This document shows, piece by piece, positions 29,894 through 55,523 of a stretch of 64,000 bases of DNA (its first letter is position 1; each line of letters starts with the position of its first letter). The notes under the pieces were generated by a model, which saw only the letters and a list, made by a program, of their open reading frames with translations, made no database searches and was not told the origin of the DNA. Location of the stretch: contig NZ_CP058348.1 in NCBI RefSeq assembly GCF_013752535.1, positions 1,178,001 to 1,242,000 on the forward strand. The letters are read 5' to 3'. The translations under genes were made by a program, and so were the position numbers. The stretch is from Bdellovibrio sp. KM01 (lineage in GTDB: Bacteria; Bdellovibrionota; Bdellovibrionia; Bdellovibrionales; Bdellovibrionaceae).

Positions 29894-30204
29894 GATGTGC
29901 CCCTTTTGTGAGTTTGTTCGGTTAAAGAATTTCTTGTTCGCGTCCGAATGGCAACCAAATACAGCGGCTGAAATGGGGGTATTTAACACTTCTAAGTACT
30001 GGCGCTTACTATCAGGCAGTTTTTGAGGAAATATCGCTATCGACAAAGTGCATTGCCAATCCATAACTCGGCTGTTACTTTCACCGCCGTTAATACGTCC
30101 TTTATAAATTCAAGATCTGGTTGAATGTCTCTACCAACTTCCTCAAAAAGTTGACTATTGGAATGATTATTAACTGACACATAAATTCTTAGTCAGTGGT
30201 AGTT
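29894..30204. other. 311-base divergent intergenic region
   Basis: Between doxX (minus) and the DMT transporter (plus). It is AT-rich near 30150-30190 with a possible -35 TTGACT, but no convincing partner -10. No RNA gene or repeat recognised. Confidence 0.4.
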
Positions 30205-31185
30205 ATGATAAATCAATCCGGTTCCCTTGAAATTCACGATAGCTCTCGTTTCAACAATCTTTTATCTGGTGTTTTATTTGTCGCTTTGGGCTCTTCCAGT
30301 TACGGCATGCTTTCCACTTTCGTAAAACTCGCATACAGGCAAAACTTCACAACGGCCGAGGTCACAGTTTCTCAAGTGATCTGGGGTGCTTTAATTTTGA
30401 CGATCATGAACGGTCTTTTTAATAAGACCGCTGAAAAATTGACGACGACAGAAGTTCGTCAATTGATGATCGCAGGTATTCCGGTGGGATTGACCAGTGT
30501 TCTTTATTATCTTTCGGTGAAATATATCGATGCATCTGTGGCTGTGGTTTTACTGATGCAATCAGTATGGATGGGAATCGTGGTTGAAACGATTCGCAGC
30601 AAGCGTGCTCCTGGCGTCGACAAAGTTTTGGCAGTGGCGATGATTTTATTTGGCACTTTGATGGCGACAAATGTTTTCGGTGCCTCCCATAACTTGGATT
30701 TGCGGGGAGTGGTGTTGGCAGTGTTGGCTGCGATGTCTTTCAGTTGGGCACTTGCTTCGACTCAAAGTGTGGCGTCTCATTTACATCCCATCAAGCGCAG
30801 CCAGATCATGATGTATGGGGCTTGCATTGTTGTGGGGTTGTTTGGATTTCTGACTCAGCTAGGACCTTATTATCTTAATGTGAATTTGATCGGTGAAGAA
30901 TTCATTCGCAATCAGCCCTTTAATTTTTCAATCTTTATGTCTTATGGTTTGATCATCGCGATCTTCGGAACGGTGATTCCGCCAATCATGTTGAACAAAG
31001 GTTTCCCCATCGTGGGAGTGGGCTTAGGGAGCATTATCTCGGCCGTTGAGCTTCCTTTTGCGATGACGATTTCATTCTTGGTATTGAACGAATCCGTCGT
31101 CAGCACTCAGTGGTTGGGAGCGATGGTCATCATCATGGCGATCGTGCTTCTAAACTACAAATTGATCTTAAGAAGTGACTGTTAA
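30205..31185 (+). CDS. EamA/DMT-superfamily transporter
   Basis: The 326-residue protein has ten predicted TM segments in two EamA halves (GSSSYGMLSTFVKLAYRQ, then VLAVLAAMSFSWALASTQS). ATG 30205 is chosen over the upstream GTG 30196. Substrate unknown; the family exports amino acids or metabolites, or imports vitamins. Monocistronic, with the leader region of rsgA downstream. Confidence 0.88.
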   Translation: MINQSGSLEIHDSSRFNNLLSGVLFVALGSSSYGMLSTFVKLAYRQNFTTAEVTVSQVIWGALILTIMNGLFNKTAEKLTTTEVRQLMIAGIPVGLTSVLYYLSVKYIDASVAVVLLMQSVWMGIVVETIRSKRAPGVDKVLAVAMILFGTLMATNVFGASHNLDLRGVVLAVLAAMSFSWALASTQSVASHLHPIKRSQIMMYGACIVVGLFGFLTQLGPYYLNVNLIGEEFIRNQPFNFSIFMSYGLIIAIFGTVIPPIMLNKGFPIVGVGLGSIISAVELPFAMTISFLVLNESVVSTQWLGAMVIIMAIVLLNYKLILRSDC

Positions 31186-31267
31186 AAAACGCACTTGATC
31201 AAATCCGCCAATTCATTTAACGTTTAAAAAGTGGCATCCAGTCACATATCACTCAAGGGAGGTCCTT

Positions 31268-31315
31268 ATGCACATTCTATCTGTAAACCAGGGCCTTCAT
31301 TCGCACCTGAACTAA
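31268..31315 (+). CDS. Possible 15-residue leader peptide upstream of rsgA
   Basis: MHILSVNQGLHSHLN with a near-perfect GGGAGGT six bases before the ATG. It ends 72 bases before rsgA. Three His and an AGGGCCTT segment inside it (31290-31297) can pair with AAGGCCCT at 31339-31346. No T-run or obvious terminator is present. A translation-coupled switch is plausible but unproven. Confidence 0.45.
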   Translation: MHILSVNQGLHSHLN

Positions 31316-31387
31316 GCAATACAATTTAGGTTTTAGAAAAGGCCCTTTAGTCATTTTCAATTTTTGAAATTAACTTTAGGAGTTTTA

Positions 31388-32488
31388 ATGTTTATTTCCG
31401 ATAAGGAATTTTTGTTTCTTTTTGGTTGGGGCGACTTTTTTGAAAGTCAGCTTCCCAGCGACTCGTCATCTTTATTATTTCCTGCGCGCGTGGTGTGCGA
31501 AGAAAGAAATCTCTATCGCCTGCAATCGGGATTTGATCAGGTATTCTGGGCCTCGGTGACTGGCAAAATGCAGTTTAATGCGACCTCAAGAGTTCAGTAT
31601 CCAGCAGTGGGGGATTGGGTCTTAGTGGAGTTGCCACCCCAGTCTGACCGCGGGGTCATCCACCGAGTGCTCGACAGAAAATCGACCATTCACCGAAAGC
31701 AGGTGGGAGCAAGTTCGGACATGCAGATTCTTTCCACGAACGTGGATTATGCATTCATCACCTCATCTGTGAATGCGGATCTAAATTACCGTCGTATCGA
31801 AAGATATCTTGCGGTGGCTTATGATGCGGGGGTGGTACCGGTCATCCTTTTAACCAAGGCCGATACAGTCGAGGGAAGTATCGAGGAAGTTTTGGCCGAG
31901 GTTCAAAATGAATTTCCGGGGGTGAAAGTACATACTCTTTCCAGGGATGAGTTTCAGCAGGCCGATTTCCTGCCGGAATACCTTAAAAAGGGTACGACCT
32001 CGGTGATTATTGGTTCTTCAGGGGTAGGTAAGTCGACATTGGTGAATTTCCTGATTGGGGAGGATGTGATAAAGACCCAAGAAATCAGGGCGGACGATGA
32101 TAAAGGTCGCCATACCACTACGTCTCGGCATCTTTATATAAGTCGATATGGTGGATTGATAATCGATACTCCGGGCATGCGCGAGCTGCAGTTATCCGAT
32201 CACTCGGAAGGTTTAAGCAATCAATTCGCAGAAGTGGAAGAGTTGATTGGCCGTTGTCGTTTCAGCGATTGCCAGCATCTCACCGAGCCTGGTTGTGCCG
32301 TCAAAGCCGCATTGGATGGCGGGACTTTATCCGAAGGCAAGTGGCGAAGTTATCTTAAGCTTCAGGCCGAAGTGCGCGCAGGTTTAAGAAAACAAGACCG
32401 TGTACTGGCGGCTGAAGATCGCAAGATGTGGAAGAAATTAACCAACGATGCCAAAGAGAGGGCACGCTTTAAAAAAAGGATTCGGTAA
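31388..32488 (+). CDS. rsgA: Ribosome small-subunit GTPase RsgA (YjeQ)
   Basis: The 366-residue protein has an N-terminal OB fold, then a circularly permuted GTPase with G4 before G1: VILLTKADT, then IIGSSGVGKSTLVNFL and DTPGMREL. A C-terminal zinc knuckle follows (CRFSDCQHLTEPGCAV). It checks late 30S assembly. ATG 31388 is preceded by AGGAG; TTG 31364 is also open. The long, structured leader with an upstream peptide is unusual for this gene. Confidence 0.96.
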   Translation: MFISDKEFLFLFGWGDFFESQLPSDSSSLLFPARVVCEERNLYRLQSGFDQVFWASVTGKMQFNATSRVQYPAVGDWVLVELPPQSDRGVIHRVLDRKSTIHRKQVGASSDMQILSTNVDYAFITSSVNADLNYRRIERYLAVAYDAGVVPVILLTKADTVEGSIEEVLAEVQNEFPGVKVHTLSRDEFQQADFLPEYLKKGTTSVIIGSSGVGKSTLVNFLIGEDVIKTQEIRADDDKGRHTTTSRHLYISRYGGLIIDTPGMRELQLSDHSEGLSNQFAEVEELIGRCRFSDCQHLTEPGCAVKAALDGGTLSEGKWRSYLKLQAEVRAGLRKQDRVLAAEDRKMWKKLTNDAKERARFKKRIR

Positions 32489-32508: not shown

Positions 32509-32536
32509 AAAAAACCCACCATGAGGTGGGTTTTTC
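32509..32536. terminator. Bidirectional terminator
   Basis: AAAACCCACC/GGTGGGTTTTT with ATGA loop, between convergent genes. Confidence 0.9.
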
Positions 32537-52670: not shown

Positions 52671-53540
52671 TTAGAACTTGTTAATTTTATCAACCAATTC
52701 AGGGTAATCGATGAATGGGTTTCTATTGCCTTGAACAGTTAGGATCGCGTTGTTGCGAGCCATTTCTTCTTCGTCCACGGGATCTTCTTTGTCCCATTTA
52801 CGCAAGAAAGCTTCTTGGCGTGGGCTGATTGGCAAGCTGTAGTGTACGGAGAAATAGAACAATGCACGAGCTACGTTCCCTTTGTGAGCTTGTGGTGGTT
52901 CGAAAACATCTGGTCCGCCACCGCCAACAGCCTTACCGAAACGAGCCACTGGGCATTTCAATGTTTTGTTATCTTTTTCAACTTCACCGAACTCGTAGTT
53001 ACCACGAGTAGAGTTCATTTCGTTGTCTGTTGGATATAAGTGATGCAAATCAGATTTTTGCATTGCTACATTGAACTGACCAGAGAAACGGCTTTGTGGC
53101 CAAGTGTGCTCGGTGTTCAAAATGTTACCATCTGGGTATTTGCCTGGAGCTGGGCCGCGACCAGAAGCAAATTCAGATTCAGTTCTGTAAACTTGGCAAT
53201 AAACGTCTGGAAGAGCGTATTGGCCGTCAACTTTAGTCAAATAGTAGGTACCCATCAACCAAGCGCGTGCACCATCATATCCCAAAGAGATGTGTTGGTA
53301 GCAACCTTCGCCAGAGCAGTTTTCAGAAATTTTGTCGTAACCGTTAGCAACTTGTTTGTGCTGGTTGCGAAGGATGTAAGCGATTCTGCTTTTCAAAGCT
53401 TCGTTAGAAGCGCCGTTAGCAAGATCTTGGTAGAATTCTTCACCGTAATATGAAATTCCGTGAGAAAGGGGAGCGGCGTTGATCGAGATCGCGAAGAACA
53501 TCGAGCAGACAACTAGAACTAAAGAAAGCATTGCTTTCAT
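52671..53540 (-). CDS. endA: Secreted endonuclease I
   Basis: The 289-residue protein has a signal peptide (LSLVLVVCSMFFAISINAAP). The endonuclease I core has ILNTEHTWPQSRF (catalytic His region), DLHHLYPTDNEMNSTRGNY, and FEPPQAHKGNVARALFYF. The family cleaves DNA and RNA non-specifically at the cell exterior or periplasm. GGAGGT is well placed before ATG 53540. In a predator this could help digest prey DNA (inference). Several Cys suggest disulphides. Confidence 0.92.
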   Translation of the reverse strand: MKAMLSLVLVVCSMFFAISINAAPLSHGISYYGEEFYQDLANGASNEALKSRIAYILRNQHKQVANGYDKISENCSGEGCYQHISLGYDGARAWLMGTYYLTKVDGQYALPDVYCQVYRTESEFASGRGPAPGKYPDGNILNTEHTWPQSRFSGQFNVAMQKSDLHHLYPTDNEMNSTRGNYEFGEVEKDNKTLKCPVARFGKAVGGGGPDVFEPPQAHKGNVARALFYFSVHYSLPISPRQEAFLRKWDKEDPVDEEEMARNNAILTVQGNRNPFIDYPELVDKINKF

Positions 53541-53780
53541 GGGACCTCCATAGACAGGCATTAACGGTGCCCGGTAGATACGCGATTCCATATTAATCGC
53601 TTATATGCGGTTTATCTTGCCCAATGGTTTGTCCCATCATCCAAAAAGAGGCAACTATCATTTCAAAATTGTTAAGGCCACGGGCGTCAATTGTGTAACA
53701 GATGAGCTGAACTAACGTTAAAACACAAATGAGCGCTGAAAATCTTAACAAAACGCTGACTTAATCAACAGCACTGCGAT

Positions 53781-54908: not shown

Positions 54909-55523
54909 ATGGAAAAACCTTTCTCTCCCTCTGCTGATCGTAACAAAGAACCTATTTTAGAAGTGCTTAAGAAAGTGCTTCGACCTGAGGACCAAGTTTT
55001 GTTGGAAGTGGGATCGGGGACTGGTCAACACGCGATTTATTTTGCGCCGTTTTTTCCGAAGACGACTTGGCAGCCTACCGAGGTGAGTGAAAACCTCCCG
55101 ATGCTAAAGGAAGCCATCAAAGAGGCGGGGATTCGCAATATCAGAACTCCGTACCGTCTAAAAATTGGCGAAGATGATTTTCCGATTCGTACCTATGACG
55201 TGATTTTGACGGTGAATACTTTCCACATCATGCACTGGAAAGAATGTAAGTCCTTTATCAAACTTATCAGTGGTCGCCTGGAAGAGGGCGGCAAAGTTTT
55301 GATTTATGGTCCGTTTAACTATAACGGCAAATTCACAACACCAAGCAATGAGGAATTTGATAAGACATTAAAAGAGCAGGATCCGCAAAGTGGGATTCGT
55401 TCTTTTGAGGATGTGCTGGCAGCGATGTTTAAGAATGGCTTTGAGTTGATTAAAGACTATGAAATGCCGTCCAATAACCGCCTGCTTTATTTCCGTCGCT
55501 TGAAATTCGTCAGCAAACGTTAA
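54909..55523 (+). CDS. DUF938 SAM-dependent methyltransferase
   Basis: The 204-residue protein starts MEKPFSPSADRNKEPILEVL and carries VLLEVGSGTGQHAIYFA (SAM motif I), YDVILTVNTFHIMHWK and GGKVLIYGPFNYNGKFT. These match the DUF938 group, whose target is not known to me. No strong ribosome-binding site near the ATG. Confidence 0.87.
   Translation: MEKPFSPSADRNKEPILEVLKKVLRPEDQVLLEVGSGTGQHAIYFAPFFPKTTWQPTEVSENLPMLKEAIKEAGIRNIRTPYRLKIGEDDFPIRTYDVILTVNTFHIMHWKECKSFIKLISGRLEEGGKVLIYGPFNYNGKFTTPSNEEFDKTLKEQDPQSGIRSFEDVLAAMFKNGFELIKDYEMPSNNRLLYFRRLKFVSKR

Follow-up and report, generated by a model that had tools for sequence, protein, structure and literature searches.

An upstream open reading frame and alternative RNA pairings in the rsgA leader of Bdellovibrio and its relatives: a probable translational attenuator

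The gene rsgA, which encodes a 30S-dependent GTPase, is preceded in Bdellovibrio sp. KM01 by a short upstream open reading frame (uORF) and by RNA segments that can pair with one another in alternative ways. Here, we describe this leader in a stretch of 64,000 nucleotides (nt) (contig NZ_CP058348.1, positions 1,178,001 to 1,242,000 of the forward strand; hereafter, the window), together with its counterparts in related bacteria. Across species, the uORF and three linked pairings are kept and vary in concert, and the leader is probably a uORF-dependent translational attenuator of the kind known from the erm genes and from toiL of Escherichia coli. Folding predicts a switch that opens or closes the Shine-Dalgarno (SD) sequence of rsgA according to the position of a ribosome, and we infer that ribosomes translate the uORF and that, in cells, the switch controls the translation of rsgA. 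The signal would be a delay of the ribosome at or just after the start codon of the uORF, that is, translation stress.

The gene occupies positions 31388..32488 on the forward strand, starts with ATG, and encodes 366 amino acids (aa). It is RsgA according to NCBIfam (TIGR00157, 162 bits against a cut-off of 100), Pfam (PF03193, 156 bits against a cut-off of 30), and solved RsgA structures, which the protein matches down to an E-value of 3e-33. The uORF, on the same strand at 31268..31315, has 15 codons (MHILSVNQGLHSHLN), an ATG start and a TAA stop, and ends 72 bases before the rsgA ATG; its SD sequence is AAGGGAGGT at 31255-31263. A preliminary description of this DNA had pointed to a 15-codon ORF with an excellent ribosome-binding site 72 bases before rsgA, and its coordinates and SD sequence were confirmed. 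It had also reported that AGGGCCTT (31290-31297), inside the ORF, is complementary to AAGGCCCT (31339-31346), and the former is indeed the reverse complement of the latter. The single stem that was drawn from this complementarity is present, but it is one of three linked pairings (1:2, 2:3, and 3:4) among four segments, all on the forward strand.

Segment 1 (31258..31266, GGAGGTCCT) consists of the uORF SD sequence and the spacer, and it pairs at -15.0 kcal/mol with segment 2 (31290..31298, AGGGCCTTC), which lies inside the uORF and has segment 3 as its alternative partner. Segment 3 (31337..31346, AAAAGGCCCT) is located between the two genes and can pair either with segment 2 or with segment 4, the SD region of rsgA (31375..31386, TTTAGGAGTTTT, with AGGAG at 31378-31382). 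The 2:3 helix is extended by the pairing of ACCTGAA (31305..31311, the extension of segment 2) with TTTAGGT (31325..31331, the extension of segment 3), which is seen in the duplex and, with the same pairs, in the leader fold; the extended helix reaches -21.9 kcal/mol. In the minimum-energy fold, segment 4 is paired with segment 3. The numbering is the four-segment numbering of ermC, in whose layout 1:2 and 3:4 form the alternative to 2:3. Computation predicts helices that exclude one another, one of them hiding the SD sequence of the gene, and these results support a scheme in which the output is the freeing or hiding of the rsgA SD sequence by segment 3, while the uORF SD sequence is an additional possible partner of segment 2. 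Other leaders offer examples of 3:4, such as GGCTCTT.AAAATT with AATTTT.AGGAGTT at locus L003 and AAGGCTCTTAAGT with ACTTAAG[G]AGTTTT at L091. No Rfam covariance model matched in 31150-31450 up to an E-value of 1.

In the class to which the window belongs, a PF03193 search (E 1e-25) found RsgA in 63 of 143 genomes, with a single match in each. We defined a rule for an SD-led uORF with an ATG start and 8-40 codons, the SD pattern of which was widened once after locus L074 had been inspected. This rule was positive upstream of 37 of the 63 genes (36 without the widening); among the 37 ORFs of the window with 150 aa or more, it was positive in 2, one of which is rsgA. The other rule-positive gene of the window has a 21-codon SD-led ORF in front of it (MNAKPVAIKVFLGVAAVLAVR), at 54999 on the forward strand. 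The uORF and the segments could be placed in 36 of the 63. All 17 genomes of the genus that carry RsgA are among them, and the other 19 belong to five families; with 13 leaders from the second class of the phylum (family f12) and one from family f29, these 36 make up the 50 leaders analyzed below. An SD-bearing, predicted translatable uORF lies upstream of the gene in these leaders, with an SD pattern in 49 of 50, a start codon that is ATG in 49 and GTG in one, and a stop after 12-28 codons, it being understood that they were selected for having an SD sequence, a start, and a stop.

The peptide starts with MI[VA] in half of the leaders (25/50), and little is conserved past the first residues; within this motif three different Val codons are used, yet Ile is ATT in 24 of 25 cases. 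No common arrest motif was seen by eye in the uORFs. Segment 2 is read in frames that vary among species (AGC TCT, GCT CTC, GGC TCT, GGC CTT), and it is therefore kept as RNA and not as peptide. Thus, where the preliminary description had proposed conservation of both peptide and pairing as a check, the uORF and the pairing are kept across relatives, but the peptide barely beyond its first residues. Protein autoregulation, in which RsgA or another factor would bind the leader helices and the uORF would matter as RNA only, could accommodate both the unconserved peptide and the shifting frame of segment 2. On the other hand, the SD sequence, the start codon, and the stop after 12-28 codons are all kept, as one would expect of real translation (in leaders chosen by having them), and we consider this explanation improbable.

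The pairings were examined by an alignment-free own-partner test, in which the duplex energy of a segment with its own partner is compared with that obtained with the partner of every other species, using non-overlapping segment windows. This test was adopted because the constraint on the SD sequence and the shifted spacing may blur an alignment-based count of 1:2. Over the 50 leaders, own and foreign partners gave -14.60 and -11.61 kcal/mol for 1:2 (z -9.0), -16.82 and -10.89 for 2:3 (z -12.9), and -10.08 and -8.10 for 3:4 (z -6.4), with 0 of 20,000 permutations as low in each case; the 26 non-redundant leaders gave z values of -7.3, -10.3, and -5.9, respectively (0/20,000 each). The own partner was better than the median foreign partner in 44, 45, and 39 of the 50 leaders for 1:2, 2:3, and 3:4, against 17 for 1:3, 19 for 2:4, and 29 for 1:4, the three control combinations. 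The own partner brought no gain in controls 1:3 and 2:4, and control 1:4 had a z of -1.7 over all 50 leaders.

It should be mentioned that some choices were made by hand: L093 was dropped as doubtful; L089, L108, L131, L134, and L139 are rule-positive but stand outside the 50; L085, L110, and L074 were added by eye; and SD sequence and frame guided the choice, by eye, of the rsgA starts in genome G065 and in the L116-L147 set. Because the 50 leaders were partly chosen by eye, the test was repeated by rule, with automatic starts, on all 53 rule-positive regions among 104 upstream regions. The z values for 1:2, 2:3, and 3:4 were -8.3, -11.6, and -7.4 (0/20,000 each), and those of the controls were 1.9, 1.6, and -1.2, none of them significant. 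In an ordinary alignment of nine window-type leaders, 87.5% of the 2:3 cells are paired and three pairs are changed on both sides, a number of double changes matched by 1 of 500 shuffles; the alignment of related leaders that the preliminary description had called for bears out its stem, which is conserved with compensating changes across species. Between genomes G000 and G012, the leader differs at 1 of 64 and 2 of 72 sites, the region just upstream at 7 of 67, rsgA at 132 of 1098, and the upstream gene at 19 of 300.

The consequences of these pairings were predicted by folding each leader with the footprint of a ribosome masked and reading out the cost of opening the rsgA SD sequence. The mean cost over the 50 leaders is 4.09 kcal/mol for the free leader, falls to 3.02 when a ribosome is placed at the uORF start, and rises to 5.24 when it is placed on segment 2; the window leader itself gives 3.9, 1.9, and 5.0. 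With the ribosome at the uORF start, the cost falls by more than 0.3 in 36 of the 50 leaders and is higher in 7, and the switch is clear within the genus (16 of 17 leaders). When the loop between the genes is shuffled, the three costs become 3.94, 3.85, and 3.62, and the switch is gone (Wilcoxon 1e-10; 5e-5 in the 26 non-redundant leaders). The geometry can be stated simply. The edge of the ribosome footprint is about +15 from the start codon, and in 48 of the 50 leaders segment 2 is centred +26 to +43 from the start of the uORF, so that it is expected to be free with a ribosome on the start codon and covered a few codons later. The suggestion of the preliminary description that the position of the ribosome on the peptide decides whether the stem forms is thus supported by the own-partner tests and by mask folding.

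We propose the following course of events. Ribosomes would load at the very strong SD sequence of the uORF. With a ribosome at or near the uORF start, segment 1 would be covered and segment 2 free, 2:3 would form, and the SD sequence of rsgA would be exposed, turning rsgA on. Once the ribosome had moved on and covered segment 2, segments 3 and 4 would pair, and rsgA would be off. Without a ribosome, 1:2 could form, hiding the uORF SD sequence and allowing 3:4. Antibiotics that stall ribosomes at the start codon, or defective 30S subunits, are examples of triggers that might induce RsgA in this way.

Chance or compositional complementarity between SD-like and anti-SD-like sequences has to be weighed here, given that any CTCC-like stretch pairs with any SD sequence and that the fold of the single sequence is unremarkable (z -1.5). 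However, own partners beat the median foreign ones far more often for 1:2, 2:3, and 3:4 than for the controls, and loop shuffles abolish the predicted switch; we regard coincidence as very improbable. It is because of the relatives, through the frequency of the uORF and a stem kept with changed sequence in other species, that the case stands above chance.

Several observations weigh against a uORF-dependent attenuator, or narrow its scope. The window leader alone folds just 1.5 standard deviations better than shuffles, 13 of 200 of which are at least as stable. Outside the genus the switch is mixed, with a lower cost in 20 and a higher cost in 7 of 33 leaders, and when the second footprint was kept at a fixed position, the cost was lower in 24 and higher in 6 of 35 leaders, but lower in just 7 and higher in 5 of 16 non-redundant ones. 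In the 13 leaders of the second class taken alone, 1:2 is weak (654/20,000), and the control 1:4 is also low (z -3.35, 5/20,000). As for the alignments, a first count of 1:2 in 17 leaders found no covariation, 83% of the 3:4 cells are paired but the double changes are not significant (208 of 500 shuffles were as high), and some of the 2:3 changes come from the row of genome G146, which is off by a base or two. In addition, no such segments precede 27 of the 63 class RsgA genes, among them some that are close to the gene of the window (L105, L087), and the compact leaders of G112, G102, and G138 in family f4 have a weak 2:3 beyond the uORF stop.

The compact leaders of family f4 have features of their own. 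At L076, L077, L080, and L084, just 37-45 nt separate the uORF from rsgA; segment 2 lies in a small hairpin within the uORF (by eye, for example, GGTC-TCC-GACC), and the last uORF codons seem to be paired with the rsgA SD sequence.

A different use of the same helices would be transcription attenuation, with 2:3 as an intrinsic terminator that a ribosome on the uORF prevents. The 2:3 helix is stable enough (mean -16.8 kcal/mol), and T-rich stretches follow segment 3 in some leaders, such as L014. Nevertheless, the 8 nt after the 2:3 helix contain on average 3.68 T against 3.16 expected, with at least six T in 4 of 50 leaders; an alternative helix followed by a U tract was thus not found as a feature of the 50 leaders, and the scan of the window lists no terminator-like site in its leader. 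What follows segment 3 matches the rsgA SD sequence instead (3:4, z -6.4), and a terminator in the leader is accordingly quite unlikely. Since 2:3 is generally without a U tract, we read the leader as a translational attenuator. Rho-dependent or mRNA-stability control, in which translation of the uORF would protect the leader and the helices would be secondary, gains some plausibility from toiL, the regulation of which reportedly also ends in Rho-dependent termination, so that a Rho layer may exist for rsgA as well. As the sole explanation we think it unlikely, for it leaves the linked pairing of 1:2, 2:3, and 3:4 unexplained.

The RsgA protein of the window is itself of a particular kind. In a quick tree, 23 of 37 rows form a clade with it (SH-aLRT 98); this clade contains the sampled leader-bearing copies and second copies from Paenibacillus, Peribacillus, and a thermoactinomycete, and leaves out E. 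coli RsgA, three Bacillota housekeeping copies, and four f12 copies. A second quick tree gave the same split, and the clade was also seen in a larger one. By tree grouping, then, the window's RsgA is not of the E. coli or Bacillota housekeeping kind. A number of f12 genomes carry two RsgA genes, both of which were seen in G144, G186, and G193. The f12 sample comprised 14 long, high-scoring copies and 19 others, and 18 of these 19 form a separate group near the side of E. coli RsgA; the remaining one, L170 (G199), groups with the leader clade but is a fragment at the end of a contig, has hardly any upstream sequence, and was set aside. The uORF was found before 13 of the 14 leader-clade copies and before none of the 18 other RsgA copies. 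The preliminary description had called the leader a fitting control for a ribosome-assembly GTPase. The gene is RsgA, but its clade stands apart from the E. coli and Bacillota housekeeping copies, and because the clade is separate, an induced stress factor is no worse a fit than routine ribosome assembly. Of the 105 class genomes that are at least 90% complete, 56 gave no RsgA match at E 1e-25, 7 of the 24 from the genus among them, and RsgA therefore looks dispensable there.

The occurrence of the leader before other genes was surveyed by scanning a leader model, R1, over 66 genomes of the family and 140 of the order. The best 20 matches in the order (E to 1.5e-7) all lie before rsgA, 17 of them being from the sequences used to build the model. 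The next match (E 5e-7; L111, 501-564, in genome G118) precedes an ORF of about 101 aa (MNFDFKDSRG...), and a uORF, MINQLVQFGSLLVFSF, with the SD sequence AAAGGGGGTGCC, is located there about 85 nt before that ORF. The genome is 74%-complete and without RsgA, and this is possibly a related leader on another gene, an exception to the occurrence before rsgA only. Four weaker matches (L112-L115) fell on the starts or interiors of other genes or on a terminator and were rejected. The seven genomes of the genus without RsgA gave no R1 match to E 0.1, except for G018 (5e-4), the match of which, L114, is terminator-like.

Outside the phylum, the Thermoactinomycetaceae have the gene at E 1e-60 in 9 of 23 genomes, with a uORF before 7 of the 9 copies, two of which are nearly alike; most of these uORFs come with competing helices before the SD sequence, as in L174 (CCACAGGG / CCCTGTGG / CCCACAAGGAGG). 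However, 2:3 or 3:4 is weak or not computable with the segment windows used in L176, L177, and L179, the L024 leader folds no better than shuffles (z -0.39), and among 10 loci taken from a set of genome contigs a persuasive uORF was seen in L024 alone. The uORF peptides of this second RsgA (L024 2522-3592, L172, L174-L179) include MTKNVFIVAEGLAT, MIVMNSK..., and MSMIVIKR..., and MIV is common to some of them and to uORFs of the window's genus. In the Paenibacillaceae (99 genomes searched), the uORF rule, here with 4-40 codons, was positive in 8 of the best 30 loci and convincing just in L193, L200, and L213. The leader does not, therefore, accompany the RsgA clade everywhere, and most of the 30 Paenibacillaceae copies are without it. 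Directly before the second RsgA gene of Paenibacillus allorhizosphaerae (L025), a terminator-like hairpin with a T run was seen by eye, which suggests transcriptional control in that lineage.

The surroundings of the leader can be described briefly. A predicted sigma-70-type promoter, TTGATC N17 TAACGT, lies at 31195..31223 on the forward strand, by pattern only, and is missing from the list of the general window scan. Its score is modest (7.5 of 12.5; 8.5 in G012); a score of at least 8.5, a level that the window's own promoter does not reach, is found upstream of the uORF in 42 of 50 leaders, as compared with 17.8 (standard deviation 4.2) in shuffles. The preliminary description had counted a transcription start downstream of 31300 as evidence against its proposal; the predicted promoters instead lie 5' of the uORF. 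A map of transcription start sites has been published for B. bacteriovorus HD100 (PMC3627812). After rsgA, an intrinsic-terminator-like hairpin with an 11-pair stem and a T-rich tail is located at 32510..32535 (+); the same scan found 5 such sites against 2.2 expected. The window also contains two purine riboswitches (RF00167), at 30080-30177 (+, 49.2 bits) and 53531-53628 (-, 52.6 bits), the first of which is directly 5' of an EamA-like transporter ORF (30196-31185, assigned by eye) that precedes rsgA.

Taking the leader and the tree together, we tentatively raise the possibility that the clade is a ribosome factor induced by translation stress and distinct from housekeeping RsgA. The four-segment leader would switch it on directly when ribosomes become stuck at a start codon, both in the phylum of the window and in some Bacillota, where the arrangement would have arisen independently or come by transfer. 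If so, this RsgA may help cells to survive ribosome-targeting antibiotics or failing 30S subunits, and Bdellovibrio, a predator that grows inside other bacteria, would possess a sensor of ribosome health. An attenuator before a 30S-assembly GTPase would tie ribosome assembly to the direct sensing of stalled initiation. The leader is kept, with compensating changes, across two classes, a Bacillota family has one of similar layout, and there is thus a concrete, testable reason to ask whether the clade is a stress factor.

Attenuators of this layout that depend on a uORF are known mainly from antibiotic-resistance genes, several of which are named in the paper on toiL. The titles, abstracts, and passages of the open-licence papers covered contain no description of an rsgA leader. 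In the erm-type attenuators ermCL-ermC and ermBL-ermB, a ribosome has to stall on the uORF for the hidden downstream SD sequence to become accessible (PMC10833563). The rsgA leader resembles them in its short SD-led uORF, alternative helices, and hidden downstream SD sequence; it differs in that it precedes RsgA and not a methyltransferase, and its helices change across many species. In toiL-topAI of E. coli, stalling on the uORF, including at the start codon, opens the downstream ribosome-binding site (PMC12121999). The sensing of translation stress by a uORF, and the opening of a downstream ribosome-binding site by stalling at the start codon, are what we propose for rsgA as well, whereas in the rsgA leader segment 3 mediates, and it is a ribosome near the start that is predicted to open rsgA. 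With regard to RsgA itself, an rsgA2 of Lactobacillus is reported to be modulated by hydroxytyrosol, and in Streptomyces RsgA/EngC (the pair SCO6149 / SCO5211) is listed among the genes that WblC, of the WblC/WhiB7 regulon, activates under tetracycline and the paralogues of such genes (PMC7157823). There, too, wblC is controlled by a uORF, and an RsgA/EngC gene, likened here by name, falls within the response, a precedent that likewise points to a stress factor. The control in Streptomyces passes through a transcription factor, whereas the uORF of the rsgA leader would act directly.
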